From: a virus
IMG/VR virus record: IMGVR_UViG_3300042387_000190
Coordinates: 1 to 20,802 of that record
Reading direction: 5' to 3' (one strand)
Length of the DNA stretch: 20,802 nt
Shown here: positions 4,788 to 20,802 of the stretch, piece by piece
Layout of the letters: the number at the start of each line of letters is the position of its first letter
Numbering within the stretch: the stretch's first letter is position 1
Notes under the pieces: model-generated
Seen by the model: only the letters and a program-made list of their open reading frames with translations
Databases searched by the model: none
Told to the model about the DNA's origin: nothing
Position numbers and translations under genes: made by a program

Positions 4788-6159
4788 CAATGGATTTATT
4801 GGTTACGATCGCTTTGTTTGGTTTCAAGGTGTTGTTGAAGATAGAATGGATCCTCTTAAACTGGGAAGATTGCGTGTAAGAATACTTGGTTTACATACAG
4901 AAGATAAGACGAAAATTCCTACTGAAGAATTACCTTGGGCTTTCCCAATTATGCCAATATCATCTGCTTCAATGAACGGAATAGGAGAGGCTCCTGTTGG
5001 TCCAGTTGAAGGAACATGGGTAATTGGATTTTTCAGAGATGGAGAGAGTTGTCAAGAACCTGTTGTATTTGGAACTATCGGTGGTATTCCACAAGAAAGA
5101 ACTAGATCTAATATTGGTTTCTCAGATCCATTTAATATTTATCCAGAAGAATCTTATTTAAGAGAACCGGATACTAATAGATTAGCAAGAGCTGAGAAGA
5201 TAGAAGAAACAGTAATCGAAGAGAGAAAGAAGACACTTGCAAATAATGGTCAGGATATACAAGTTGCCCTAGAAAGAATATCTAATGATGGTGGTCCTAG
5301 ATCAGAAGGTGATGATACTGCTTGGTTAGAACCAAATCCACCATACAAAGCAAAATATCCATTCAATAAAGTATTCCAGACCGAAGGTGGAATCATTAAG
5401 GAATGGGATGATACTAAAGATCATAGAAGAATTCATGAATATCATCCATGTGGAACTTTCTATGAAGTATATGAAGAAGAAGGAAAGGCCCATAAGATTA
5501 CTAAGATTAATGGAACTAATTACACGATTGTTTTAGATGATGATAATATTTTTGTAGAAGGATCTGTTAATATCACTACAAGAGGAAGAGTTAATATCTA
5601 TGCCGGAAATGATATTAATGTAGAAGCAAATTCTAAATTAACTATCCACGCAAAGAAAGATACGTCGATATTCTGTACAGAAAATATCAGTCTAAATGCA
5701 ACTAAAGATATCAATATATCTTCTGGTGGAAATATGACATTTAATTGCGCTGGAAGTATGAATACTACAGTTGGTCAAAATTTAACTACGACTACAGAAT
5801 TAGGAAGCATAAGTTTAGTTTCTAATCAATCTATGGGATTATCTTCTATCTTAAATATGAACATATCTTCATTGACGAATTGCTATTTGTATGGATTAGT
5901 TGAATCTAATATTTCTTCTGGTGTTCAGACAACAATTGACAGTTCGATTAATACAACTGTGCAATCTGATATATCTACATCTGTTGGATCTAAGATTGCT
6001 ACTAAAATAACTTCAGGTGGTGGTCCTTTAAATATCCAATCACTTACGAATATGATTAATCTCAAATCTCCAAAATGGATAAATGCAGAAGCACCGAAAG
6101 TCACTAGAAAGATACCAAAGTTTGCACCAATAGGCAAACCAACATTTGATATAACTTAG
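4780..6159 (+). CDS. 5: Baseplate central spike protein, T4 gp5-like, no lysozyme domain
   Basis: This 459-residue protein is a gp5/VgrG-type spike. Residues 9-105 form the OB-fold: RFVWFQGVVEDRMDPLKLGR (11-30), LRVRILGLHT (31-40), LPWAFPIMPISS (51-62), GTWVIGFFRDG (78-88) and PVVFGTIGGIP (94-104). Residues 106-195 are a charged, Pro-rich linker. From about 200 the protein turns into a triple-stranded beta-helix of short alternating repeats (INGTNYTIVLDDDN, then repeated NI-x-V/I patterns to about 430), ending in a KFAPIGKPTF tail. T4 gp5 (575 residues) has a lysozyme domain between the OB-fold and the helix; here that space is too short and shows no lysozyme motif. The protein should still puncture the outer membrane as a trimer below gp27. 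The start is set by the AAGGAGAT ribosome site. Confidence 0.88.
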   Translation: MISNGFIGYDRFVWFQGVVEDRMDPLKLGRLRVRILGLHTEDKTKIPTEELPWAFPIMPISSASMNGIGEAPVGPVEGTWVIGFFRDGESCQEPVVFGTIGGIPQERTRSNIGFSDPFNIYPEESYLREPDTNRLARAEKIEETVIEERKKTLANNGQDIQVALERISNDGGPRSEGDDTAWLEPNPPYKAKYPFNKVFQTEGGIIKEWDDTKDHRRIHEYHPCGTFYEVYEEEGKAHKITKINGTNYTIVLDDDNIFVEGSVNITTRGRVNIYAGNDINVEANSKLTIHAKKDTSIFCTENISLNATKDINISSGGNMTFNCAGSMNTTVGQNLTTTTELGSISLVSNQSMGLSSILNMNISSLTNCYLYGLVESNISSGVQTTIDSSINTTVQSDISTSVGSKIATKITSGGGPLNIQSLTNMINLKSPKWINAEAPKVTRKIPKFAPIGKPTFDIT

Positions 6160-6167
6160 AGAAATAC

Positions 6168-7058
6168 ATGGGATTACCAAAATTACCAACATATTCGTTT
6201 CCAATTAATAACGCCAAATTATTGAGAATCCTGGATGCTGCTGCACAGGCTCAAGAAATTGCAGCTTTAATTGCACCATTCATCAATAGACCAGTTTCAT
6301 GGAGATCGATTAGTTCGGCTGCATTTGGATCAATAGCAATTTTAAATCGCAATGATTTAATCTCTAATGAATTGTCTTCGGCTTTAAGAGATTCTATAAC
6401 ACAAGTAACACGAATTCAGAATACTACTAATACTTTACAGTCGTTAACAACTAATCTTAATACATCTAATTTTCAACAATCTTTATTTTCTATAGATAGT
6501 ATCACAGCAACTCTCACATCTCAATCTGCTGCATTAACTAGAACTTCGGATTATTGGGTAGAAGTTGTTGATTCGAATATCAACAACAGATTAATATCTA
6601 ACACACCACAAGAAGTTCAAGATTCGATCGATGATCTGAATCAATACATTGTTGGAAATGCTTCTTCTATTTCGAGTGCTTTGTCTTCGATGAATTCTTT
6701 GGCTTCTACACTGAGTTTTCTAGGAGTTGATGCTACTGGTGCTGTGACTAATGTTAATTCTGTTGTATCTATAGCTAATGATGTTGCGGCAGCTTCAGCT
6801 AATGTTGCCAATATAGCAAATAACATGGAAGCATCAGTAAATAATGTCAAAGCTATTGCAAATAATTTCAAGAAAATAAATAAGTTGTTTGATGAGAAGA
6901 GAAAAGGTGATAAGAAAATACCAACTATTCCTGCTGCCATAGATCCAAGAAATTCGCAATATTATACGATTTATAAATCAATTAACTCATCAATTGATCT
7001 CCTAAATACTGCATCGACTTCTTTAACATCTATTCCTAAAATACCGTTTCTCTCTTAA
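6168..7058 (+). CDS. Unassigned coiled-coil virion protein between gp5 and gp25
   Basis: This 296-residue protein is not recognised. It is rich in Ser, Asn, Ala, Thr and Ile, with few aromatic residues and no Cys. It has an N-terminal Pro-containing segment (MGLPKLPTYSFP), a helical Ala-rich part (23-37), and a clear seven-residue periodicity at about 195-243 (for example IANDVAA, ASANVAN, IANNMEA, SVNNVKA, IANNFKK), followed by a basic patch (KRKGDKK) and a C-terminal SINSSIDLLNTAS helix. The Asn-rich heptads resemble trimeric coiled coils of phage fibres. No PAAR motif is present, so it is not the T4 gp5.4-type tip. It sits eight bases after gp5 and upstream of gp25, so it is probably a hub or wedge structural component. 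The start ATG at 6168 lacks a clear Shine-Dalgarno sequence (TAGAGAAATAC precedes it). Confidence 0.75.
   Translation: MGLPKLPTYSFPINNAKLLRILDAAAQAQEIAALIAPFINRPVSWRSISSAAFGSIAILNRNDLISNELSSALRDSITQVTRIQNTTNTLQSLTTNLNTSNFQQSLFSIDSITATLTSQSAALTRTSDYWVEVVDSNINNRLISNTPQEVQDSIDDLNQYIVGNASSISSALSSMNSLASTLSFLGVDATGAVTNVNSVVSIANDVAAASANVANIANNMEASVNNVKAIANNFKKINKLFDEKRKGDKKIPTIPAAIDPRNSQYYTIYKSINSSIDLLNTASTSLTSIPKIPFLS
6750..6896 (+). repeat. Degenerate heptad (21-base) repeat in coiled-coil protein
   Basis: Seven consecutive seven-residue units (codons about 195-243) carry Ile/Ala at one position and Val/Met/Phe four residues later, with Asn between. Codons differ between units, so the repeat is kept at protein level and is not a recent DNA duplication. 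Confidence 0.7.
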
Positions 7059-7064
7059 TAAATA
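7057..7064 (+). promoter_or_regulatory. Late promoter motif (AATAAATA) before gp25
   Basis: AATAAATA begins inside the stop codon of the coiled-coil gene and ends six bases before the gp25 ATG at 7071. Spacing and the following ATGGC match the motifs before gp4 and gp48. No Shine-Dalgarno sequence is present. Confidence 0.5.
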
Positions 7065-7070
7065 ATCTAT

Positions 7071-7466
7071 ATGGCCACAACATTACAAAATAGATATAGA
7101 GATATCGACCTATCTCTAAGAAAAAATCCAAAAACTTCTGATATCTATACATTAACAGATGTTGATGCAGTCAAGAGATCAGTGAAAACATTAGTAATGA
7201 CTAATTTTTCTGAGAGATTATTCCACCCTGAAATCGGTTCTGGGGTATACGGTTCGTTATTCGAAAATTTTAGCGTAGAAACAACGATTGTTTTAGAGAC
7301 TGCTATACAAACAGTAATAAATAATTTCGAACCAAGAGCAAGATTAATTAATGTTAACGTCAAAGAATCGACAGATCAGCATTCTCTAGATATTGAAATA
7401 TCGTTTTATATAGTAAATATCCAAGACCCAGTATCTGTTAGAGTTAATCTAGAGAGAGTCAGATAA
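7071..7466 (+). CDS. 25: Baseplate wedge protein, T4 gp25
   Basis: This 131-residue protein matches T4 gp25 (132 residues) in length and sequence pattern and belongs to the GPW/gp25 family. gp25 holds the gp6-gp53 wedge core together and starts the sheath. Visible landmarks are YRDIDLSLRKNPKTSDIYTL (9-28), VKRSVKTLVMTNFSERLFHP (34-53), EIGSGVYGSLFEN (54-66) and the conserved EPR motif at 87-89 (NNFEPRARL) with the following strands to IQDPVSVRVNLERVR. The stop and the next ATG overlap by one base (TAATG at 7464-7468), so gp6 is translationally coupled. An AATAAATA late-promoter motif lies just upstream. Confidence 0.93.
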   Translation: MATTLQNRYRDIDLSLRKNPKTSDIYTLTDVDAVKRSVKTLVMTNFSERLFHPEIGSGVYGSLFENFSVETTIVLETAIQTVINNFEPRARLINVNVKESTDQHSLDIEISFYIVNIQDPVSVRVNLERVR

Positions 7467-9286
7467 TGTCAAATAAAACGGTAAATTTAGTTTCAGAATT
7501 AGATTTCGAAACAATTCGTAATAATATTGCGGCATATATTGCGAATAATTCATCATTTACTGATTACAATTACGAAGGATCTGGATTGTCCACCATCATG
7601 GATATTCTTGCATATAATACTCATTATAATGCAGTTTATCTTAATATGGCTCTGAATGAGAATTTCATCGACACTGCGCAATTAAGATCATCAGTAGTTT
7701 CTATAGCAAGAAATCTTGGATATACACCTAGATCTAAAAAGTCATCAAAAACTAAAGTCTCATTCAGAATCCCGACAACAGATCCCAACAATACTTCTCT
7801 TACACTAGAAAAAACAACTAAATTCGTTGGTGATATTGACGGAAGCACTTATATCTTCCAACCAACTAGTGCTATCACAGCTCTTTCAGACGGATCTAGA
7901 TATACATTCAATAATGTAGAATTAAGAGAAGGAACCAGATTATCCATTCAATATGATGCAACAGATGCTGATGGAAATCTTGTGAATAGATTCTTCATCA
8001 ATAATTTCAATATTGATACGGAATCTATTGAGGTCTATAATCAAGAAGCTGGTGTTTCTGGTAATCTTCAGACTTATAATTTAGTCTCTGACATCACTAT
8101 CTTAGACGAAGAATCGCAGATTTATTATCTATTCGAATCTACGAATAGAAATTATGTAATTCAATTTGGTGATGGTGTTCTTGGAAAGAAACCTGAAGGC
8201 GGAACTATTATCATTTCTTTCCAAACTTCTTCAGGTGAAGCAGCAAATGGCATATCTAAATTAACTCTCTCCGATACGATAGGCGCAGGTAGAACAATAG
8301 GTTTAGAATCATTCGGTGCGTCAGATATCATTTTCGATAATATCGAAACGAGTTATGGTGGCGCTTCTGAAGAATCTATCGAATCTGTAAGAATAAACGC
8401 TCTTACAAATTTTTCGACTCAAGGAAGAGCCGTTACTGCTGAAGATTATCGTTTCTTTTTAGAGCGTGATTATCCTCAAGCGGAATCTATTTCTGTTTGG
8501 GGTGGACAAGATAATGTTCCTCCAATCTACGGTAAAGTGTTTATTTCCTTTAAACCAAGAAAAGGGTTTAGAATCACCAATGCAGTTAAACAAGAAATTC
8601 TTTCAAATATCTTAGAAACGAAGAACATATTAACTGTGATTCCTGAAATAGTAGATGCTGATTACACTTTCGTACAGATATCCACTTCTGTTCTATATAA
8701 CGCAAAAAGAACTATCTACACATCAGCAGAATTACAGTCTCTAATTTTAGATAAGATTATGTCTTATAATTCAGAAGAGCTAGTTAAATTCGGAACAAGA
8801 TTTTCATATTCCAAATTCGTAAATGAGATCGATAGAACAGAAAATTCTATTATCTCAAATTACACACTAATTAAATTAAGAAAGAATTTTCCTGTTAATA
8901 TTGATATTACTAACACCTACACGATAGATTTCCAAAATCCTCTGAGAGCAGGAACATTTCGTTCTGCTACAGGTTTCAGAGCATTAAATGATTCGACTTT
9001 AGGTGCAACTAATGATGAATTCTTTATTGAAGACGATTCTTCTGGGTTAATCCGAATCTATAAAATCGACTCTGGAAATAAAGTTATCCTAAAAACAAAT
9101 AGTGGAACAATAGATTATAATACGGGTTTAGTTAAAATAACCAATCTGAAACCTTCTTCAGTAGTTAATATAGATAAAACATTAGATGTGATTGCAGAAC
9201 CAGTTGAATACACTGTAACATCTAGAAGAAACAATATTCTTGTTATCGTAGATACCGATGTTAACATAAATATGAGAGTAGAATAA
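7466..9286 (+). CDS. 6: Baseplate wedge protein, T4 gp6 (baseplate J family)
   Basis: This 606-residue protein matches T4 gp6 (660 residues), which dimerises around the baseplate and forms the inner ring of the wedges. Landmarks: LVSELDFETIRNNIAAYI (8-25), YNYEGSGLSTIMDILAYNTH (35-54), LNENFIDTAQLRSSVVSIAR (63-82) with NLGYTPRS following, the central YVIQFGDGVLGKKPEGGTII (230-249), and RAVTAEDYRFFLERDYPQAE (321-340) followed by a GKVFISFKPRKG segment typical of baseplate J-like proteins. The C-terminal part holds an extra beta-rich domain (IYKIDSGNKVILKTNSG). The start overlaps the gp25 stop (TAATG); a weak GAGAGAG stretch at 7451-7457 could help. No sign of frameshift or truncation. Confidence 0.92.
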   Translation: MSNKTVNLVSELDFETIRNNIAAYIANNSSFTDYNYEGSGLSTIMDILAYNTHYNAVYLNMALNENFIDTAQLRSSVVSIARNLGYTPRSKKSSKTKVSFRIPTTDPNNTSLTLEKTTKFVGDIDGSTYIFQPTSAITALSDGSRYTFNNVELREGTRLSIQYDATDADGNLVNRFFINNFNIDTESIEVYNQEAGVSGNLQTYNLVSDITILDEESQIYYLFESTNRNYVIQFGDGVLGKKPEGGTIIISFQTSSGEAANGISKLTLSDTIGAGRTIGLESFGASDIIFDNIETSYGGASEESIESVRINALTNFSTQGRAVTAEDYRFFLERDYPQAESISVWGGQDNVPPIYGKVFISFKPRKGFRITNAVKQEILSNILETKNILTVIPEIVDADYTFVQISTSVLYNAKRTIYTSAELQSLILDKIMSYNSEELVKFGTRFSYSKFVNEIDRTENSIISNYTLIKLRKNFPVNIDITNTYTIDFQNPLRAGTFRSATGFRALNDSTLGATNDEFFIEDDSSGLIRIYKIDSGNKVILKTNSGTIDYNTGLVKITNLKPSSVVNIDKTLDVIAEPVEYTVTSRRNNILVIVDTDVNINMRVE

Positions 9287-9289
9287 TAC

Positions 9290-12200
9290 ATGCATATTCC
9301 TCATAAAAAGAAATTTTTCATTAAATCACAGATTCCTCAATATATCAGAGAAGAATATCCTCTATTTTTGGAATTAATGGAGCAATATTATTCTTTCCTT
9401 GATTCAGATGAAGGACAGATAGTTGCTGTTAAAGTTATTGATGGTGGATCTGGGTACAATCCTGTTTCAGAATGGACTGGAAACACTTCATATGTGAAGG
9501 GTCAAAGATTTAGTTTCAATAACAAGATATATTCTGTTGTTCAAGATTCAACTTCTTCTAATATCGTTAAATCATTCGCTCTAACTTCAGTTAATGATGC
9601 AACTGAAGTTATAACATTTGGGACTAATCATAATCTTTCAACTGGCGATGAAGTAATATATTCTTTTAATGGGGCGACAGGTCCTATCGGTTCTACTGGA
9701 GTTATTGGATTAACAGATAGCCAGAATTATTGGGTTGGTGTGACATCACCAACATCTGTTAAGATATACAGTGATAGATCTAGTGCATTGACCCTTGGTG
9801 CAACTGGTTTGGTAGGTCTTAATTCTACCATTATTAATCAGACACACACATTTACTGCTGGACCATGGCATTCAGGGGCAACTGGTATATTCACTTTTGC
9901 TAATGTCACATCTAAATTCGTTTCTTCGGGTGGACCAGAATCTGTTATAGTTTATTTTGCTACTAAAAATGATATTGGCGAATATGTAACTGATCCTAGA
10001 ACAGGTTCAGCTTCCGGTGCTACTGCAACACCAATCTTAGATTCTGGTGTTATTAAAAAAATCGTGGTTACAAATCCTGGTTCAGGATACACGAAAGAAG
10101 ACGAACCAAGAGCAATTGTAACTGGTGGTAATGGATCTGGAGCCGTTTTAGAAACTGTAACCACAACAGATTTTGGTGGATTAAATGCTTCGATAACTGC
10201 TTCACAATATTCTAGAGATATTGATGAAACAATCGAAAGATGTATTCAATCTTTGAGAAGAGAATTAATTCCAGATATTCCAGATAGATTATATCTTGAA
10301 TCAGACAATTTAGTGGAATCTAGAGAAGTTGATGTTAGAAAATTCATTAAGTTCATCAAACAATTCTATAATTCAAAGGGTGCAGAGAAATCAATTCAAT
10401 TCTTATTCAGAATTCTATTTGATTCTGATGTTCAGATTTATTATCCTAAGAAAGATATGTTGCGTGTATCTGATGGAAAATGGTCTGAAGATTTCGTTAT
10501 AAGAGTTACTCCAATAAATCCAGAAGAAACTGAAGAATCTTTCACAGAATCTTTCCTTGGTGAAAGAATTATTGGTTTAGATTCTGGTGCTACTGCAACG
10601 ATTCAATCTGTAGTAGATATCGCAATTGCTGGGTCAGGATTAACTCTAGAATTAAGATTAACAGAAATTAATGGAACATTTGATACCGATGAAGAAATTT
10701 CTGTATTCGATTACGATAGAACCAGGTCACCACAATCTATAGCAACAATCCGTCCTTGTATATCATCACTCAATATTATCGATGGTGGAATTAATTACAG
10801 AATAGATGATCAGATTATCTCTGATTCATCTTTCTTAGCAAGAGTGACAGAAATTGGAACTGTAATCACCGATCCGAAATATTTTGACATTTCTAGTCAA
10901 TTAGCAGAAGTCTCTAAAAATTTTGATATTGAAAATGATATAAATACAAATTCAAAGACGATAACATTTAAAACACCACATAATTATAGTGATGGTGATT
11001 CAGTAATTTATTCTTTAAATAACAGTGAAATAAGCAATGCTATTCTAGAATTTGATATAATTTCTAATGTAGACGCTCAAAACGATTGCATTATTCTAGA
11101 TAATCCACACAATTACTCTGATGGAGATAGAATAATTTATTCGTTTGCCGGAGCTACTGGTCCTGTGGGAGCTACTGGTCCAATTGGTTTAAATGATAAC
11201 AAAACTTATTGGGTAAGAACTTCATTTAACGATGATTCTAAGATTGTTGCAGAAGTGGAAATTACAGAACCAGGTTCTGGTTATACTTCTGCACCAGTCA
11301 TAACATTCTCAAATCCATTTACTGGAGCGACAGGCGCAACTGGTTTCTACAATGGAGCAACTGGTTTCTTCATTGGTGCGACTGGATCTAATATTGGATC
11401 GACAGGATTTGTTCAGGGAACAATAATCGGAGTCAATTTTGCGATTCCCGGTGCGACTGGTGTATCTACTAAATTCTACAGATCTTATGCATTAGTTCCC
11501 AATTCTACATCAACGCCGCTTCATAGTGTTGGTGCAACAGGTTATTGGGAATTTATAGGACGTAATGCATTAGCAACCGCAAATATTGGATTAATTAATG
11601 GTGCGACTGGCGCTACTGGTGTCACTTCTATCACAATTACAGATCATGGTTTTGGTTATGGAATTAATCCTACAATTACATTTTCAACTGGAAACGCAGA
11701 AGCAACTGCGAAAATGTATTCTGATATTCGTGGAAGATATGTAAGATTACACGATTCTTATTTTAATTCCACACTAGGATCAACAGGATTAGTAGGACTT
11801 TCTCAATCAGGAACTTCACAAACTCATAAATTATATCTATCACCAATTGGATTGAAAGAATCCGAAACTTATTACACAAGAATTACTGGAGCAACAGGAG
11901 TCCAATTATACACTTCTCAAGCTGCAGCAATTGCTGGATCTACTGGATCATTGGTTTCTGTTGAATCGAATAATTTATCAGAAACAACAGAATTCCATTC
12001 TCTATCTAAGTTATTAGAAACACCATATGTATATGTATCTTCTAAAACAATAACATTCAAGACGCCACATAATTTCAAAACAGGCAGAGGATTGTTATAT
12101 TCGTTCAATGGAACCACTGGACCCACAGGTGCAACTGGAGCATTAGGTTTAATAGATGGTACAACTTATTACGCAAGAATAACTGGATCAACTGGAGTTC

Positions 12201-15200
12201 AATTATATACAACTTATGAAGGCGCAATTGCAGGAACTACTGGTCTTCTTGTTTCTTTAGGATCAACTGGGTTACATCAAGTTCATTCTATATCTCAAGT
12301 TTCTCAAAATTCTATTAAAAATTACAAGATTCAGAATTTTGGATTTAATTATCAAACACAACCTGTTATCACTGCATCTAACACAGAAGGTGGGCAAGGA
12401 GCAGAATTTACAGCCAATCTTTCCGGATTATTGAAATATGATGGAGAGTATATTGGAACTGACGGACAGCCTTCTTCGGCAAAGAAGATTCAAGATTCGG
12501 AATATTATCAAGATTTCTCATATGAGATTATTTCAGATCAATCTGCTAGAATCTTTGGAACAATCTTAGAAAAAACAATACATCCTGCTGGTCTAAGATA
12601 TTTTTCTAGAATCCTATCTGTCAGAGACGAATCTCTATATGAAGAGAGAGATAACTATAATGTATTCTACGAACAATTCACATTTTTCGTAACTGATCCA
12701 GCTGGACAAACAGATTTCGATATTTCTTCTTTCTTAGATAACGGAATAGAATGGCAAGCAGGAGATATCGTTAATTCTGGTCAAAAGATATTCGTAAGAG
12801 TTGGTTCTGACGATTACATTTTCATTGTTTCAAGAGCAGGACAATTCGGTTCTACACCTCCGTCTATCACTAGTGGGGAGCAAACTAATGGAACTGCTGC
12901 TTTAGTATTCTCTGGTGTAGCGGAACAAGTTCTATCTGTATTCGTTAATGGTGTTCTACAAGAATATGGTGTAGATTTCACAATGAAAGATGCAAATACT
13001 ATAGAATTCTTCGTTCCTCTTCCATTAGGATCTATAGTTAGAATATACAAGAGAGAAGATATTCTTATAGAAACAGAATATCAAGATTATATTCAATCTT
13101 TTACTTCAGTAGTAACAAAGAGAAACAAATTTGTAAGAGATTCGTTTGATGCATATAGATGGTATCCAGGAACAGAATCCACTCCGAAATTGTGGCAACA
13201 AACTGGAGCGACGTCATTCCTACAGAATGACATTGTTATGTGGAATAACAATTATTATCTAGTTACACAAGCTGGTGAACCAGGCAGATATCCACCAACA
13301 CACGTCGAAAGATCCTATCCGAATGGAACAACAATCATGAAATATTATCCTCAATTCAGAGGATATAATGGTGATATCATATTCAACGGAAATAATTTCT
13401 ACAAAGTAACTGGAAATTCTATTGCTAGTTTTAGCGCAGAATTCGGATCAACAGGACCAACACATACCATTGGTGTGACAGATGCCATTATCTCTAATGG
13501 CGGTGTTTCTAATGTTATGTCTCCTGGTGGATATTCTCTTGTAATTACTGGAGCAACTGGATCTGGTGCTGCTGGAACAGCTAATCTATCTTGGGGATCA
13601 ACTGGCGTCTTTGTTTCTTCTATACAGATAACACATAGTGGTAGTGCATATGATATCGTTCCGTCTATCACTATATCTGGTGCTACTGGCTTCAATCCAA
13701 ATTATTCTATTACAGCTATAACAGGACCTGCTACTGCTGTGAATGGTAAAACTTCATTAACATATTATGATCCAGGATATTCTTTCTGGTCCGGATCAAC
13801 TGGAGTAGGAGTTAATGATATTGTTAAATATGAAGGTAATTGGTATAAAGTTATCGAATCGGGTACTACTTCTGGCGCTTCTGGACCTAACCATAATATG
13901 GGTTCTCAATTATCTGGTACTGCTAGATTAGAATACTATCCTATAGATCATGCGAAAACAACTACACTTCCTGTTGTTTCTCAATTAGATCCAGGTAAAG
14001 CAATGCTTGGGCCCACTGTAAATGATATTGTTAGAAATATTGGAACAGGTATTCCAGATTTCTTCCAAAATATTTTTGGTACCGTTAGTATCACACCATC
14101 GGTATATTTTTCGCAACTTGATTTAGGAGAAACTGGTCTATCCGATCAAGATGATGAATATATCGGTTATACAATCATTATAACTTTTCCAGACACCACT
14201 AGAGACATTAGAACTGTATTAGATTATGATGGAACTACTAAAATAGTTACACTAAACGGATCTACTGGTGTTAATCCAGGAACAAATGGATCTCTATCAT
14301 ACAGAATGATTCAGAATTATTTGATCCATAGTGTTTCTGCTGGATCTTTTTCTGTTCCTGATTCTGGAGCTACTGGTCTAAAAATCGGATTATCTGAATA
14401 TGATCTTGCTTATAATTTGAATCCTCTAACTGGCGCAACAGGAGTTCTTGGTGCTACAGGAATTACGAAATATACATTTGATAGTGCGACTGCAATAATT
14501 GGTGCAACAGGTCCTTCTGGTTCTGTTGGTGCCACTGGTTACATGATTAATATTCCTGCACACGAATTATCCAATACATTCAGATTATCTTATAACAACA
14601 ATGGAAATTCAAACTTAACTGGGTTAACTTCTGGTGATTCTTATTATGTTATTGTAGTAGATTCTAATAATATTCAGTTAGCAGATAGTTATTATAATGC
14701 TGTTGCAGGAGCAACAGGTGCTACTGGATTCGTAGCAATTACCCCAGGATCAGGAAATCATAAACTACATCCACAAAACGATCTATATAAAAGTTTCAAT
14801 CTGATTATATCTTCTGGAGATGGCACGAATAGTGTCTTGAATATTAAAGAATACGATGAGATAACAAATACAATACAATGTTATGGATATCCTACAGGAA
14901 CTATAACTCCAAATAATTCGACTTATTTCGTGTATCCTGATTTATATGCTTATCCAGGAGGAGCAACTGGCCCATCAGGATCAACTTATAATGACAACCA
15001 TTATGGTGGAAGCATTCTATCTTTGAGTATTTCTTCTGGTGGGGTTGGATACAGTACTGCAAACACTGTATCTTTCGTTGGTGGATACGGAATAGGAGCT
15101 GCAGCAACAATCACCAGTGTGGATGGTACAGGTAGAATTACTGGAATTGTTCCAACAAATATCGGTAGAGGATACATTTACGAACCAAGAATCACATTCT

Positions 15201-15832
15201 CACCTGGCGCAACCGGAATAGTAGGAACTGGTGCAATTATCAAACCAGTTCTCTCTCCTCTAAATTCAGCTGTAAGCGTTGAGACAATCTCAAGATACTC
15301 AATGTTTGGGCATTATCAATATTATGTCAATAATTCTTCTATCACTACTTCTTGTTCTAGTGTATTAGGTTTGGAAAGAATTATTCTAACAGACGATTCT
15401 TTCGATACGTCTAATCTGTATGTAGGACAATCTGTTTCTGGTTCCGGAATCGCAGCAAACTCTAGAATCAAAAATATATCAGATAGAATCGTAGAATTAG
15501 ATAAACCAGCTATAAGCACATCTTCGTTCACTGTAACATTTACAGGTAAACCACAACCGATGTTTGAGTATGGCGAAACTCTAGTACAACAATCAACATC
15601 TGATCCTCTCTCTTCCAATAAGATGAGAGTTATCAATTACGATCGCATAAATAAAATATTATATGTAGAAAAAGATGAAGAATCAGATGAATTGAATACT
15701 ACAAATTATCTATCTAGATCTAAAAATAATTCTACAATAGCCATCATAGGATCTACTGGTTCTGAAATGTATTCTGGATGGAAATCTATAAACCAACCAA
15801 TTGGTTGTATCATTAAAACATATCCATTATAA
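9290..15832 (+). CDS. 7: Giant baseplate wedge protein, gp7-like, repeat-rich
   Basis: This 2180-residue protein fills the gp7 slot between gp6 and gp8; T4 gp7 has 1032 residues. The N-terminus (QIPQYIREEYPLFLELMEQY, 14-33) and the block at 310-398, with FIKFIKQFYNSKGAEKSIQF, LFRILFDSDVQIYYPKKDML and RVSDGKW, are hallmarks of gp7-position proteins in marine T4-like phages. The rest is a mosaic of beta-rich modules: five copies of a PHN-x-SDGD-x-IYS module; about eight GSGY-type strands; five W-x-GDIV-x-NN-x-YYxV modules; a VGQSVSGSGIAANS segment near 2047; and 39 G-[AST]-T-G motifs. In T4, gp7 begins wedge assembly by binding gp10. Here the extra modules probably decorate the baseplate edge. 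The start is four bases after the gp6 stop with no Shine-Dalgarno sequence. The gp7 name rests on position and the N-terminal domain. Confidence 0.78.
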   Translation: MHIPHKKKFFIKSQIPQYIREEYPLFLELMEQYYSFLDSDEGQIVAVKVIDGGSGYNPVSEWTGNTSYVKGQRFSFNNKIYSVVQDSTSSNIVKSFALTSVNDATEVITFGTNHNLSTGDEVIYSFNGATGPIGSTGVIGLTDSQNYWVGVTSPTSVKIYSDRSSALTLGATGLVGLNSTIINQTHTFTAGPWHSGATGIFTFANVTSKFVSSGGPESVIVYFATKNDIGEYVTDPRTGSASGATATPILDSGVIKKIVVTNPGSGYTKEDEPRAIVTGGNGSGAVLETVTTTDFGGLNASITASQYSRDIDETIERCIQSLRRELIPDIPDRLYLESDNLVESREVDVRKFIKFIKQFYNSKGAEKSIQFLFRILFDSDVQIYYPKKDMLRVSDGKWSEDFVIRVTPINPEETEESFTESFLGERIIGLDSGATATIQSVVDIAIAGSGLTLELRLTEINGTFDTDEEISVFDYDRTRSPQSIATIRPCISSLNIIDGGINYRIDDQIISDSSFLARVTEIGTVITDPKYFDISSQLAEVSKNFDIENDINTNSKTITFKTPHNYSDGDSVIYSLNNSEISNAILEFDIISNVDAQNDCIILDNPHNYSDGDRIIYSFAGATGPVGATGPIGLNDNKTYWVRTSFNDDSKIVAEVEITEPGSGYTSAPVITFSNPFTGATGATGFYNGATGFFIGATGSNIGSTGFVQGTIIGVNFAIPGATGVSTKFYRSYALVPNSTSTPLHSVGATGYWEFIGRNALATANIGLINGATGATGVTSITITDHGFGYGINPTITFSTGNAEATAKMYSDIRGRYVRLHDSYFNSTLGSTGLVGLSQSGTSQTHKLYLSPIGLKESETYYTRITGATGVQLYTSQAAAIAGSTGSLVSVESNNLSETTEFHSLSKLLETPYVYVSSKTITFKTPHNFKTGRGLLYSFNGTTGPTGATGALGLIDGTTYYARITGSTGVQLYTTYEGAIAGTTGLLVSLGSTGLHQVHSISQVSQNSIKNYKIQNFGFNYQTQPVITASNTEGGQGAEFTANLSGLLKYDGEYIGTDGQPSSAKKIQDSEYYQDFSYEIISDQSARIFGTILEKTIHPAGLRYFSRILSVRDESLYEERDNYNVFYEQFTFFVTDPAGQTDFDISSFLDNGIEWQAGDIVNSGQKIFVRVGSDDYIFIVSRAGQFGSTPPSITSGEQTNGTAALVFSGVAEQVLSVFVNGVLQEYGVDFTMKDANTIEFFVPLPLGSIVRIYKREDILIETEYQDYIQSFTSVVTKRNKFVRDSFDAYRWYPGTESTPKLWQQTGATSFLQNDIVMWNNNYYLVTQAGEPGRYPPTHVERSYPNGTTIMKYYPQFRGYNGDIIFNGNNFYKVTGNSIASFSAEFGSTGPTHTIGVTDAIISNGGVSNVMSPGGYSLVITGATGSGAAGTANLSWGSTGVFVSSIQITHSGSAYDIVPSITISGATGFNPNYSITAITGPATAVNGKTSLTYYDPGYSFWSGSTGVGVNDIVKYEGNWYKVIESGTTSGASGPNHNMGSQLSGTARLEYYPIDHAKTTTLPVVSQLDPGKAMLGPTVNDIVRNIGTGIPDFFQNIFGTVSITPSVYFSQLDLGETGLSDQDDEYIGYTIIITFPDTTRDIRTVLDYDGTTKIVTLNGSTGVNPGTNGSLSYRMIQNYLIHSVSAGSFSVPDSGATGLKIGLSEYDLAYNLNPLTGATGVLGATGITKYTFDSATAIIGATGPSGSVGATGYMINIPAHELSNTFRLSYNNNGNSNLTGLTSGDSYYVIVVDSNNIQLADSYYNAVAGATGATGFVAITPGSGNHKLHPQNDLYKSFNLIISSGDGTNSVLNIKEYDEITNTIQCYGYPTGTITPNNSTYFVYPDLYAYPGGATGPSGSTYNDNHYGGSILSLSISSGGVGYSTANTVSFVGGYGIGAAATITSVDGTGRITGIVPTNIGRGYIYEPRITFSPGATGIVGTGAIIKPVLSPLNSAVSVETISRYSMFGHYQYYVNNSSITTSCSSVLGLERIILTDDSFDTSNLYVGQSVSGSGIAANSRIKNISDRIVELDKPAISTSSFTVTFTGKPQPMFEYGETLVQQSTSDPLSSNKMRVINYDRINKILYVEKDEESDELNTTNYLSRSKNNSTIAIIGSTGSEMYSGWKSINQPIGCIIKTYPL
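9473..13945 (+). repeat. Five W-x-GDIV / YY-x-V modules in gp7-like protein
   Basis: Copies start near W62 (9473), W1155 (12752), W1302 (13193), F1356 (about 13352) and W1500 (13787). The shared pattern is an aromatic residue, then GD/ND-I-V, an Asn-rich turn, YY/FY/WYxV, a Gly-rich turn and often PTH or PNH, then NGT-x-x-KYYP. Copies two, three and five are the fullest; the first lacks the PTH part. The pattern recalls small carbohydrate-binding modules (CBM5/12-like), but that is only a resemblance. Confidence 0.6.
9602..14767 (+). repeat. Five PHN-SDGD-IYS modules in gp7-like protein
   Basis: Copies lie at residues 105-188 (9602-9853), 555-582 (a short copy), 598-645, 918-1001 and 1726-1826, with a partial copy at 828-890. 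Shared elements are ITF-x-x-PHN, GD-x-x-IYSF, a Gly-rich insert, GL-x-D, a YY/YW strand, and LYxS followed by AIAG-x-TG. The copies at 555 and 918 both read SKTITFKTPHN but use different codons, so the duplications are old. Confidence 0.7.
9671..15768 (+). repeat. Dispersed G-[AST]-T-G motif, 39 copies
   Basis: Counting by eye gives 26 GATG, 11 GSTG and 2 GTTG in the gp7-like protein. They cluster at 9671-9893, 11150-12271, and 13446-15217, with a last one near 15757. The two regions 9894-11149 and 12272-13445, which include the conserved 310-398 block, have none. Third codon positions vary among copies. Confidence 0.85.
11324..11408 (+). repeat. Dense cluster of five G-[AS]-T-G motifs
   Basis: Within 85 bases the protein reads GATGATG, then GATG, GATG and GSTG separated by three residues each (FYN, FFI, SNI). 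Spacing of seven residues between the last motifs suggests turns of a repeated beta structure. Confidence 0.75.
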
Positions 15833-15835
15833 ATA
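15828..15835 (+). promoter_or_regulatory. Late promoter (TATAAATA) before gp8
   Basis: TATAAATA is an exact match to the T4 late promoter element and overlaps the stop codon of the gp7-like gene. The expected start near 15841 leaves a leader of about 17 bases, which includes a possible AAAGGGATT ribosome site (15840-15848) before the gp8 ATG at 15858. Confidence 0.65.
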
Positions 15836-15857
15836 GTTAAAAGGGATTAAGTAAAAC

Positions 15858-17714
15858 ATGCCAACAGTTCTAAGTTCTTCTTTGAGACACAAAAACCTCA
15901 ATAATTTCAGAAATACGATCCAAGACGAATCAGTATATTTTTTCGTTTCTAAACCAACTAGCTGGGCTGGTGGAGATCTTACTCCTCCATCTGTTTTCGA
16001 TACATTTACACTAGAACCAGAAGCACATGATGAGATGTTATATCTCAAGAGAGTTTCTGTTTCAAATTGCGTGAATGTTATTCGTTTGTATCGTTGGCAA
16101 GAAAATAGAAGATATCAAGCTTATTCCGATAAAGTAGATCTATCGGATCTACTGACAAAGAGAACTATTTCTACAAACGAATATTATCCTTTTTATGTAG
16201 TCAACGACGATTTTAGAGTATATAAGTGTATAGATAATGGCGCAACAACTTCTGATCCCAACGGTGTTTCGTCAACAGTAGAACCAACTACTGTTGCATT
16301 TACTGGATCTGATACATATACACCTCTGTCAGATGGTTATATCTGGAAATATATGTTCACCCTGAGACCAATCGATGCGTCAGAATTTCTCACAACAGAT
16401 TGGTTTCCTATTCGCACATTATCTGAAGACGATGGAACTGACAATTGGGATATTATTACTAATGCAGTTTCTGGTGGTGTGTATAATATTAAAGTAACTA
16501 ATGCTGGTTCTTCTTACACTAATATCTTACCAGCAACTGGCGACAATCTGAATACAACAAATTCACAAGGTTTCACTTATACCGGATCGGGAACATCGAT
16601 CATTATCGATACTGCACAAGGTGCTAGTGGTGAAAATGACGTTTACAATGGTTGTTATCTCTATACTAAGAATTCTTCAGGTTTAGTTCAAGAAGTAGTT
16701 ACTGTTACAGATTATGTTGGTGGATCAAGAACACTAACACTCAGTGGATCTGTCAGTGGAAGTTTAAGAGCTTATATTTCCCCAAAGGTGACTGCGACTG
16801 GTGATGGTTCTAATTTAGTTGCAATAGCTAGAATGTCTGATTCCAATTCAGTCAGAGAAATTCAAATCTTTACACCAGGATCAGGATATAGTGAATGCAC
16901 TATTTCATTTGCTGGCGGTGGAGGCTCCGGTGCAGCAGCTGAAGCAATTATATCTCCTTTCGGCGGACATGGTTCTGATCCTGTAGTAGAATTAGGTGCA
17001 TTCAATCTACTTACAAAAGCTAAATTCGAAGGTGATGAGGGTGGTGTGATCATTTCTTCTAACGAATATAGAAAGATTGGATTGATAACAAATCCTCTTG
17101 TTTATGGCTCGTTAAAAACAGCGCAGGCCAGAGTAGGTTTAACAACTTCTCAGATGACTCTTGCTTCAACTGATTCTTCTACAAATGACATCCACAATGG
17201 AAAAAAGATTTATATCTATTCTGGAAAGGGTAGAGGTCAATTAAGAACAGTTGAAGATTATGTTGGTTCTACGAAATTATTAACTGTTTCAGAACCATTT
17301 GATATTCTACCTGATAATACTTCATCATACGGTTTCTTATCGACGGATTCTGTAATCAATCAGTGTCTAGTTTTAAACTATTCTTCTATATCAGGTCCAA
17401 CTATTCAACCAGATACTACTATCTATCAAGGAACTCCTGGTTCAGAAACAGCAATTGGAACAGTTGTACAACATGACACAGTGAATAAAAAAGTTTATAT
17501 CACTAATCTATCTAAGTCTTCTGGTGCAGTGACATCTTATCCATATTTTGGAACCATTTCAACAACAGCAGGTACTTCTACATTTACAACAACTAGCGTG
17601 AATAACGTTGGTGTTCATCCAAACACAGGAACTGTATTGTATGTTGAAAATAGAACACCACTTTCAAGATTCGTAGAACAAATCGAAGATATTAGAGTTA
17701 TCATTCAATTCTAA
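15858..17714 (+). CDS. 8: Baseplate wedge protein, T4 gp8-like, extended
   Basis: This 618-residue protein matches the gp8 wedge family in its N-terminal 190 residues: ESVYFFVSKPTSW (24-36), LYLKRVSVSNCVNVIRLYRW (61-80), FYVVNDDFRVYKCIDNGA (112-129), LSDGYIWKYMFTLRP (157-171) and the DWFPIRTL segment (181-188). The C-terminus VLYVENRTPLSRFVEQIEDI, with VIIQF ending the protein, is also typical of the family. T4 gp8 has 334 residues; the extra length here is in the middle and holds two GSGY-type modules (NAGSSYTN and TPGSGYSE with a GGGGSGAAAEA turn) and beta-rich repeats similar to those of the preceding gp7-like protein. gp8 binds gp7 and gp10 in the wedge. A possible ribosome site AAGGGATT and a perfect late promoter precede it. 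Confidence 0.85.
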   Translation: MPTVLSSSLRHKNLNNFRNTIQDESVYFFVSKPTSWAGGDLTPPSVFDTFTLEPEAHDEMLYLKRVSVSNCVNVIRLYRWQENRRYQAYSDKVDLSDLLTKRTISTNEYYPFYVVNDDFRVYKCIDNGATTSDPNGVSSTVEPTTVAFTGSDTYTPLSDGYIWKYMFTLRPIDASEFLTTDWFPIRTLSEDDGTDNWDIITNAVSGGVYNIKVTNAGSSYTNILPATGDNLNTTNSQGFTYTGSGTSIIIDTAQGASGENDVYNGCYLYTKNSSGLVQEVVTVTDYVGGSRTLTLSGSVSGSLRAYISPKVTATGDGSNLVAIARMSDSNSVREIQIFTPGSGYSECTISFAGGGGSGAAAEAIISPFGGHGSDPVVELGAFNLLTKAKFEGDEGGVIISSNEYRKIGLITNPLVYGSLKTAQARVGLTTSQMTLASTDSSTNDIHNGKKIYIYSGKGRGQLRTVEDYVGSTKLLTVSEPFDILPDNTSSYGFLSTDSVINQCLVLNYSSISGPTIQPDTTIYQGTPGSETAIGTVVQHDTVNKKVYITNLSKSSGAVTSYPYFGTISTTAGTSTFTTTSVNNVGVHPNTGTVLYVENRTPLSRFVEQIEDIRVIIQF

Positions 17715-17723: not shown

Positions 17724-20700
17724 ATGCCAGCAATTTCAGAATTAAATTCAGCGCCATATTGGGATGATTTTTCTCCAGAGACTAAAGATTTTTTAAGAAT
17801 TCTTTTTAGACCTGGATATGCAGTTCAAGCCAGAGAATTAAATCAATTACAATCTATCTTACAAACTCAAGTAGAAAGATTCGGTAATCATATTTTCAAA
17901 GAAGGATCAATTGTTGTTGGTGGTATGACAACAATTAACACTAAATCTAGAAAATATATTAAAATTCAAGATAATTATAATGGTGTTGAAGTCTCAGTGT
18001 CTTCTTTCTTGAATAAGAAAGTTACTGGTTCTATAACTGGCGCACAAGCTTTGGTTGTTGCTATTGCTGAAAAAGAAGGCTCCGATCCGAAGACTCTTAT
18101 TATCGAACCTCTAAATGGTTTCGATTTCGATGAATTTGGTGAAACTATTAATGCCGAAGGTGGTGGATCTTGTTTAGCTGCTGCTTCTGGAGTTATTAGT
18201 GGTCCATCTTCTACAGCTTCTATCGATAGTGGTATTTTCTACACAAAAGGCTTCTTTGTAATCTGTCCACAACAAACAACTTATCTAGAAAAATACACTA
18301 GATTAGCTAATGCGAAAGCAGGTCTCTTATCTGAGATTGCTATTATCGATGAGGGAGATGATGTAACTCTCCTAGATAACGCCACAGGATCATATAACTA
18401 TGCTGCACCTGGTGCACATAGATTAAAAGTTAATCTAACATTGACTTCAAAAGCTTTAGACTTCACTGAAGAAGCTGATATCTTTATCGATCTATTAGAA
18501 GTAAGAGAAGGGCAATTATATAAGCAAGTTACAAGACCAATCTATTCTGAAATCGAAAAGACTTTAGCAAGAAGAACCTTTGATGAATCTGGCGATTACA
18601 CTGTAAAACCATTTTTAGCCGATATTCAAAATCATCCATCAGATAATAACAAATTGCGTGCATATATTGAATCCGGAAAAGCTTATGTTAAAGGGTACGA
18701 ATTCGAAACTATTGCAAGACAATATGTTGATCTAGATAAACCAAGATCGAATTCGGACGATTCAACATTAAACGGTTTCGATATTGGAATGAATTATGGT
18801 AATTATGTTGTTGTTACTGTAGACGAAAGTTACCCAGATGTTTCTTCATTAGAAACTCTCTACCTATATAATGCTGCTGGTGGTGAATTAGGAGCATGTA
18901 GAGTTTCTTCTATTCAATATGATTCTACTATTGGCGGTGTTAAAAGATATCGTTTTTATCTCTTTTCTATATTCTTAGCTGCGGGTAATGGTTTCAGTGA
19001 CGTGAGATCTTTGAGATCTGCAAATGGTTCTTCAAAGAAATTCGATCTAGTTCCAGTAGATTCCGGTTCGACTGGATTGCTATTTGGAACAGATACAGCG
19101 AGCTACATTTTTGAAACAGGATTGCAAGCAGTAAGAACATTTAAGATCGAAGATTCTCTAAATCCTGGATCATTTACTGCTGCGACAGACACAGAATATC
19201 AATATAAAGGTGTATACACATCAGTTTCTTCTGGAACAAGTTTTGCTTGGACTGTAGGTTCTAATGAAACACTTCAGACTGGAACAGATACAACCACTAA
19301 AGAATCTCACTACTTAGTTATCAACAATTCTGATAATGAACAAATAACTAATTTTGATATAACAATCACAAATTCTTCAAGAACTGCAACAATCAGTAAT
19401 TTAAATGGATCTGGTGCAACTGCTTCTTCTGGTATTTCTGTTATTTACACAGTTAACGCAAATTCCACTACTCCAAGAATTAAAACTCTTGTAGAACCAA
19501 AAACTAATTCCGGCTTCGCTAGAATTGGTCCGAATTCACCAACTACAATTAAGTTATCTTCAACTGCAAACTCCTCTGTATCTAACTATTATCAAAATGG
19601 TCTGATCAAGATTTTGTATGGTACTGGAGCAATGACTGGTGCAACTGGATTTACAATTGCATCGTACGATGAAACTACTCAAATTGCGACAATTTCAGGA
19701 GCGACTGGATTCTTAGCTGTACCGGACGAATCTTCTTATTACGAAATCGCCCCACCAACTACATCTTTCGTTTATAATGCTGATTCACTTTCAAACGGAA
19801 TCAAATATTTCACAACAGCAATCACAAGTGATAATAATCTATCACTGACTGTTCCTGATGGGATTAGAATTGTTAAGATCTTGAATTCCACTTCTCAAGC
19901 AGATTGGTTTGATCCGACCAAAGATGTTACTAATAAATTTGGTTTCGATAATGGACAAAGAGATTTCACATACGAATATGCGCAATTATCTTTGGCTCCT
20001 GGACAAACAGTCACTGGTGCTATAAACGTATTCTTTGAATACTTCACTCATTCTGGATCTGGTTATTTTAATGTTGATTCTTATCCTTCGTACGATAAGA
20101 TTCCTTCTTTTTCTTCATCAAAAGGAAAAACATTTGATCTGAGAAATTGTGTAGACTTCAGACCTGTTAGAAATCAAGATCCTGCTACTCCAGGATCAGG
20201 TCCCTACTTCAGTACTGTGCTACCTATCTCTGGTTCTAATATGTCCGCTGATGTTACACATTGGTTATCTAGAATCGATAAGATAGTTGCGACAACCGAT
20301 AGATCATTTAAAGTTATCAAGGGAAATTCGAATATCTCTCCAAAAGAGCCGGATGACCTTGATAATGGTATGACTCTGTATACTGTCAGATATAATCCAT
20401 ACACTTTCAATAATAAAGATATTACTCTACAATATATCGATAACAAGAGATATACAATGAGAGATATTGGAAGAATCGAAAAGAGAATTGAAAATATCGA
20501 ATATTATTCTCTACTCAATATGTTAGAAAGAGAAACTGCAACATTAGATGTCACAGATGCTAATGGTAATGACAGATTCAAGAATGGATTCGTTGTAGAT
20601 ACATTTACTGGTCATGGTGTTGGTGATGTGAGCAGCATTGATTATCGTTGTTCTATCGACACACTAAAACAAGAAGCAAGACCAAGATTCTATGATAAGA

Positions 20701-20802
20701 ATTATGATCTATTCTTGAAACCTACAGAATCAACAGGCTATACACAAAGAGGATCTCTTCTTTCTAGATCATTTAATCCTACAAATTTTATCGTCCAACC
20801 GT
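17724..20802 (+). CDS. DUF4815-type virion structural protein, 3' end outside window
   Basis: The frame stays open from the ATG at 17724 to the last base (1026 codons visible, no stop). The N-terminal block APYWDDFSPETKDFLRILF (10-28), continuing RPGYAVQARELNQLQSILQT (29-48) and VERFGNHIFKEGSIVVGG, is the signature of DUF4815 proteins of large myoviruses. Further family landmarks are SGKAYVKGYEFE, a GKTFDLRNCVDFRP segment, RDIGRIEKRIENIEYYSLL (913-931) and FVVDTFTGHGVGDVSSIDYR (954-973). Three G-[AS]-T-G motifs like those in the gp7-like protein lie at about 19065-19076, 19638-19649 and 19698-19709. In marine T4-like phages such proteins follow gp8 and are thought to be baseplate or fibre-attachment components; whether this one replaces T4 gp10 is unknown. 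The gene starts nine bases after gp8 with a good ribosome site. Confidence 0.85.
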   Translation, partial: MPAISELNSAPYWDDFSPETKDFLRILFRPGYAVQARELNQLQSILQTQVERFGNHIFKEGSIVVGGMTTINTKSRKYIKIQDNYNGVEVSVSSFLNKKVTGSITGAQALVVAIAEKEGSDPKTLIIEPLNGFDFDEFGETINAEGGGSCLAAASGVISGPSSTASIDSGIFYTKGFFVICPQQTTYLEKYTRLANAKAGLLSEIAIIDEGDDVTLLDNATGSYNYAAPGAHRLKVNLTLTSKALDFTEEADIFIDLLEVREGQLYKQVTRPIYSEIEKTLARRTFDESGDYTVKPFLADIQNHPSDNNKLRAYIESGKAYVKGYEFETIARQYVDLDKPRSNSDDSTLNGFDIGMNYGNYVVVTVDESYPDVSSLETLYLYNAAGGELGACRVSSIQYDSTIGGVKRYRFYLFSIFLAAGNGFSDVRSLRSANGSSKKFDLVPVDSGSTGLLFGTDTASYIFETGLQAVRTFKIEDSLNPGSFTAATDTEYQYKGVYTSVSSGTSFAWTVGSNETLQTGTDTTTKESHYLVINNSDNEQITNFDITITNSSRTATISNLNGSGATASSGISVIYTVNANSTTPRIKTLVEPKTNSGFARIGPNSPTTIKLSSTANSSVSNYYQNGLIKILYGTGAMTGATGFTIASYDETTQIATISGATGFLAVPDESSYYEIAPPTTSFVYNADSLSNGIKYFTTAITSDNNLSLTVPDGIRIVKILNSTSQADWFDPTKDVTNKFGFDNGQRDFTYEYAQLSLAPGQTVTGAINVFFEYFTHSGSGYFNVDSYPSYDKIPSFSSSKGKTFDLRNCVDFRPVRNQDPATPGSGPYFSTVLPISGSNMSADVTHWLSRIDKIVATTDRSFKVIKGNSNISPKEPDDLDNGMTLYTVRYNPYTFNNKDITLQYIDNKRYTMRDIGRIEKRIENIEYYSLLNMLERETATLDVTDANGNDRFKNGFVVDTFTGHGVGDVSSIDYRCSIDTLKQEARPRFYDKNYDLFLKPTESTGYTQRGSLLSRSFNPTNFIVQP

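Follow-up and report, generated by a model that had tools for sequence, protein, structure and literature searches.

A recurrent Gly-[Ala/Ser]-Thr-Gly word in turns of modular tail proteins of uncultivated T4-like phages, a candidate recognition and glycosylation site

The stretch of DNA analyzed here (hereafter the window) is a 20.8-kb virus fragment carrying a T4-like phage tail-gene block, in which PHROG and Pfam identify homologs of gp53, gp5, gp25, gp6, gp7 and gp8 together with a DUF4815 protein. The ORF at 9290..15832 (+ strand) encodes a gp7-like baseplate wedge protein of 2,180 residues. It sits between the gp6 and gp8 homologs, and the order gp25-gp6-gp7-gp8 appears as phrog_261, phrog_219, the gp7-like ORF and phrog_438 at 7071-17714. 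Residues 343-390 match PF23786 (Baseplate_wedge; E = 7e-15, 55.7 bits versus a cut-off of 27), and the protein also matches phrog_17744 and phrog_2885, both of which are baseplate wedge families. The conserved wedge block covers residues 310-398 (10217..10483, + strand). CBM5/12-like repeats of the chitin-binding type occur at 9470-9556, 13148-13291 and 13751-13960; the best of them (E = 1.6e-5, 25.3 bits) falls just under the Pfam cut-off of 26.2, and the others are weak. A search of solved structures with the whole gp7 sequence returned no match.

The gp7-like protein is strongly enriched in the tetrapeptide Gly-[Ala/Ser/Thr]-Thr-Gly (G[AST]TG), which it contains 39 times if overlapping copies are counted and 36 times if they are not. 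These comprise 26 GATG, 11 GSTG and 2 GTTG, with Ala or Ser at position 2 in 37 of the 39. The initial annotation considered this recurrence to exceed chance, and shuffles of the same protein agree (mean of 0.77 and maximum of 4 across 300 shuffles), so we rejected chance or composition as the source of the count. The motifs span 9671-15760; the end point first given, 15768, lies beyond the last motif. The conserved block had been described as free of the word, and we found no copy in residues 200-620, which include it, or in residues 995-1385. On the window DNA, the back-translated pattern matches 42 times on the forward strand and never on the reverse strand, always in one frame of structural genes, with three matches in the DUF4815 ORF and none in the remaining complete genes.

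All copies in gp7 are on the + strand and are unevenly distributed. The first HGL-type module contains motifs 1-4 (9671..9886, residues 128-199), of which motifs 1 and 2 keep a Gly-X-Y register (GATGPIGSTGVIGLT). Motifs 5-15 (11150..11620, residues 621-777) include GATGPVGATGPIGLN and an array with seven-residue spacing, GATGFYNGATGFFIGATGSNIGSTG. Tandem HGL-type modules hold motifs 16-23 (11777..12271, residues 830-994), where the word occupies hairpin turns in the forms ITGATGVQL, ITGSTGVQL, AGSTG, AGTTG and LGSTG. Motifs 24-28 (13445..13804, residues 1386-1505) belong to a Gly-rich beta module and a CBM5/12-like repeat, motifs 29-36 (14258..14728, residues 1657-1813) include GATGVLGATG and GATGPSGSVGATG, and motifs 37-39 (14960..15760) start at residues 1891, 1973 and 2154.

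The word is sharply delimited. Against 37 copies of G[AS]TG, gp7 contains one G[AS]SG, one G[AS]VG and no G[AS]NG, all at background, and G[AS]AG, [^G][AS]TG and G[AS]T[^G] are likewise close to their expected numbers. The residue that follows is polar or charged after none of the 39 motifs, compared to 65 of 195 other Gly residues (Fisher p = 9e-7), and the same non-polar tendency is seen in relatives; we write the extended word as G[AS]TG-phi.

That selection acts on the peptide, as had been proposed from the variable third codon positions, is supported by both codon use and conservation. Third positions of the motif codons do vary, although ACG is never used, and the 26 GATG copies have 23 different DNA spellings, where 19.6 are expected from the codon use of the gene and 20.9 from permutation within the motif. 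Because this diversity is at least that expected by chance, an origin in DNA repeats or a mobile 12-mer is disfavored. Motif Thr residues are retained at 39 of 41 positions (95%) in relative L023, 34 of 41 (83%) in L025 and 25 of 41 (61%) in L014, whereas other Thr residues are retained at 141 (77%), 119 (65%) and 84 (46%) of 182, respectively; Gly conservation is roughly equal within and outside the motif. The word is also kept amid variable flanks, with motif versus flank conservation of 0.93 versus 0.80 (L023), 0.82 versus 0.57 (L025) and 0.63 versus 0.42 (L014).

Comparison of gp7-position proteins bears out the suggestion that the word is a lineage-specific trait. Complete gp7 proteins of relatives at 57-97% identity have 31-41 motifs, and those of the cyanophage and pelagiphage isolates examined have 0-3, a background level. 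In a tree of the wedge core, the motif-rich relatives group with moderate support (89/94) with L045 (1 motif), L018 (14), L049 (5, partial), L019 (9), L021 (2, partial) and L048 (0), and gp7-position proteins outside this group have 0-2. This distribution indicates that the trait belongs to the group, in which it arose or disappeared on more than one occasion. Among the loci fetched, a sample partly picked by the pattern GATGPxGATG, at least eight isolated (non-collagen) copies were found only in gp7 and DUF4815 proteins of the group. L045, about 60% identical to the window in the core and in gp6, lacks the modules that carry more than half of the window motifs, and at the remaining sites it keeps none, having gaps or shorter or different turns, with residues such as GQTA, DGSG or ANTG. 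L045 also carries (6600-11648) a repeated module of its own, GQSVSGTNIGAGAxVSSI, in about four copies, as if a different module had been amplified in each lineage.

The word had been assigned to one baseplate protein. The 39 copies in gp7 stand, but the word is also present in the DUF4815 protein, in fibers and in the collagen-like stalk of one relative. The DUF4815 ORF (17724..20801, + strand), the next gene but one after gp7, runs off the window and has three isolated motifs at 19065, 19638 and 19698 (residues 448, 639 and 659); its full-length homologs have 5-10. In 60-kb contigs of relatives, the word is nearly confined to virion tail and neck genes, and in one of these, G002, all 43 DNA matches fall in virion genes, namely gp7, gp15, a neck protein and a small collagen-like tail gene. 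A fiber on the L014 contig has 17 motifs, arranged as a tandem GSTGFx collagen-like stalk (PF01391, E = 1.4e-15), so that a single word serves two folds, this stalk and the beta turns described below. Elsewhere in the relatives (L246, L248 and L249), several similar ORFs of ~200-280 residues, which begin with IYCTYLTxYxGNKLPPFYIGSTS, resemble GIY-YIG homing endonucleases by eye.

The idea that the word is gained in turns and loops draws support from the L045 comparison, from internal module copies and from predicted structures. In two AlphaFold models of modest confidence with few sequences behind them, A2 (m4d4e464d8bfe, mean pLDDT of 70), from the region of motifs 16-23, and A3 (mc5cc863ea103, mean pLDDT of 64), from that of motifs 24-28, all eight motifs in the confident parts are predicted to lie in loops, with only 2 of their 32 residues in strands (circular-shift p = 0.001). 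In model A3, motifs are predicted to fill exactly four-residue gaps between strands 33-40 and 48-55 and between strands 48-55 and 60-69, and model A2 places a GSTG between strands 63-69 and 74-78. Foldseek found no match to model A2 in the PDB at E ≤ 0.001; the ubiquitin E1 enzymes at the top of its ranking had low TM-scores and were taken as noise. Across module copies within gp7, the same hairpin reads RVDDNNIKL, VVDSNNIQL or ARITGSTGVQL, and the same loop reads GGGGSGATG or GATGSGAAG.

A link to exchangeable modules had also been raised and is supported. The gp15 homolog (tail sheath stabilizer) of G002 (L247:7853-8875, - strand) has an HGL-type module inserted at residues 120-197; this is the module type found in gp7, and modules therefore appear to move between tail genes. 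The L010 gp7 (5939-12748) has an extra module of ~85-90 residues near residue 176 and is otherwise ~94% identical to the window protein, which marks a module recently gained or lost. A fiber on the L014 contig contains this module type too.

We favor, with a probability of roughly 40%, the reading that G[AS]TG, when a small or hydrophobic residue comes next, acts as a surface-loop word specific to the lineage, the Thr of which is recognized, most likely for a putative O-glycosylation. According to this proposal, the word would be selected as a peptide, and a single clade of uncultivated T4-like phages would have repeatedly placed it in turns of its beta-structured, modular tail proteins, namely gp7, the DUF4815 protein and the fibers. 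The exact word would be kept because it is recognized, most likely by a glycosyltransferase that O-glycosylates the Thr, and the outcome would be many small glycans on the outer baseplate and fibers that might provide shielding, protease resistance or adhesion. O-glycosylation of the motif Thr is possible by analogy with biochemistry shown directly on GATG peptides: Clostridioides difficile SgtA transfers beta-O-GlcNAc onto the Thr residues of substrates that include TGATGLIGPTGATGA and a DGATG peptide with a single site (PMC7157674). In mycobacteriophages, glycosyltransferases encoded by the phage are reported to glycosylate virion proteins (PMC12363180). A search of the literature for GATG in phage tail fibers returned nothing relevant.

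Candidate enzymes are encoded by relatives of the window phage. In G002, a cluster at L247:305-6751 contains PF00535, PF00534 and weak PF13704 glycosyltransferases, an FkbM methyltransferase and HAD/NTP-transferase genes, and it adjoins the small GATG collagen-like tail gene; G001 has a GT1 gene. Among the lineage records searched, all of which are fragments, PF00535 scored above its cut-off in only one. These glycosyltransferases may instead serve DNA hypermodification (Tet_JBP and TAGT genes) or act on host polysaccharide. G002 encodes a Tet_JBP dioxygenase (PF12851, E = 2e-22) and a TET-associated glycosyltransferase (PF20691) at L245:11768-14632, ~12-15 kb from gp7, which suggests DNA cytosine hypermodification in this phage lineage. 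Two further points count against glycosylation: SgtA also accepts Ser, whereas the gp7 word is nearly devoid of Ser at position 3, and the strict hydrophobic residue at +1 and the exact fit to four-residue hairpins would also suit a structural role. We consider doubtful the more specific proposal that G[AS]TG-phi is a virion O-glycosylation sequon, in which a lineage-specific transferase would decorate dozens of surface turns of the baseplate and fibers and sites would arise convergently in unrelated loops and be lost with the enzyme, perhaps in L045.

A purely structural explanation is nearly as likely as the O-glycosylation reading. It holds that G[AS]TG-phi is the favored four-residue beta-hairpin loop of the lineage, is unmodified and is kept for good folding, nitrogen and carbon economy and tolerance of module insertion and exchange, a combined claim that we regard as a serious but still tentative contender. 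The predicted inter-strand positions in both models are those expected of such a loop, the motif-free module copies have VDDNN, VDSNN or GGGG as homologous turns, and modules do move between genes, as the L010 insert, the fiber on the L014 contig and the HGL-type module in the G002 gp15 indicate. Turn preferences are normally degenerate, however, and a loose preference fits poorly with an all-or-none word whose near misses stay at background. In addition, the close relative L045 has other turns throughout, and the word is found in the collagen-like stalk without a hairpin. We prefer recognition by a small margin, since the word is sharply defined, is missing from close kin that have the same turns and occurs in two folds.

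The initial annotation had suggested collagen-like trimer contacts; read as degenerate Gly-X-Y repeats, the words could build short triple helices or make such contacts. Gly-X-Y character is present in gp7, which has five runs of 4-5 triplets and nine G..G..G..G patterns compared to 0.25 expected, and collagen-like GXT arrays are often seen in other environmental viruses and also in a fiber of the same clade. Nevertheless, the longest run is five triplets, well short of the long uninterrupted array that marks collagen-like proteins; 29 of the 39 motifs belong to no run of at least four triplets; and Pfam Collagen (PF01391) is not among the gp7 matches at E ≤ 0.01. In T4, gp7 is monomeric and present in six copies per tail, one per wedge (PMC3004832). 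These observations make trimer contacts unlikely, and the models, which place the motif in hairpins and loops, also point away from them; we judge this explanation improbable.

Simple shared ancestry, in which duplication of a single module would account for every copy and no repeated gain is needed, is slightly less probable still. HGL-type modules do recur three to four times in gp7 with some motif positions in common, and the window and L014 share ~21 of 39 motif sites. Yet the turn that bears the word differs between homologous module copies, and the word is also present in DUF4815 and neck proteins. Moreover, the sister group L018/L273 (42% core identity) has different modules and still has 14 motifs, mostly at other positions, with only 3-4 of the 14 near a window motif in the alignment, so the word is reused at non-homologous sites. 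A by-product of DNA copying (slippage, gene conversion or a mobile 12-mer) or a DNA mark is very improbable, since local tandem arrays, such as the seven-residue array in gp7 and an 18-bp array in the fiber of a relative, are outweighed by a spelling diversity that is if anything above chance and by the restriction of all matches to one strand and one frame of structural genes.

The recurrence of an exact tetrapeptide in non-homologous surface turns, and the lack of it in close kin that share the core, point to selection for a short recognition word rather than for a fold. Should the word be a glycosylation site, virion glycosylation would become readable from the sequences of uncultivated phages. 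Should it be only a turn, it would show clearly how a loop preference shared across a lineage eases the swapping of tail modules.

The window gp7 resembles T4 gp7 and other PF23786 proteins in its placement between gp6 and gp8 and in a wedge block that scores above the cut-off, but it is about twice the size of T4 gp7 and contains inserted HGL-type, Gly-rich and CBM5/12-like modules along with the 39 motifs. The gp7-position proteins of cyanophages Syn33 and S-SM1 are also very large modular tail proteins that share a homologous wedge core and a G.GY-type Gly-rich motif, whereas across the 4.8 kaa examined their G[AST]TG content is at background (3 and 1 copies). Collagen-like GXT repeats, such as those of C. 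difficile BclA3 and phage fiber collagens, use the same Gly-Ala/Ser-Thr-Gly word with Thr at Y. O-GlcNAc on Thr has been demonstrated for BclA3 peptides and the Thr residues in gp7 are candidate sites; most gp7 words are isolated in beta turns rather than in long arrays, and PF01391 is lacking. In mycobacteriophages, phage transferases are likewise reported to modify structural proteins, there the capsid and tail tube at their C termini (PMC12619734), whereas the candidate sites described here are scattered in baseplate loops.
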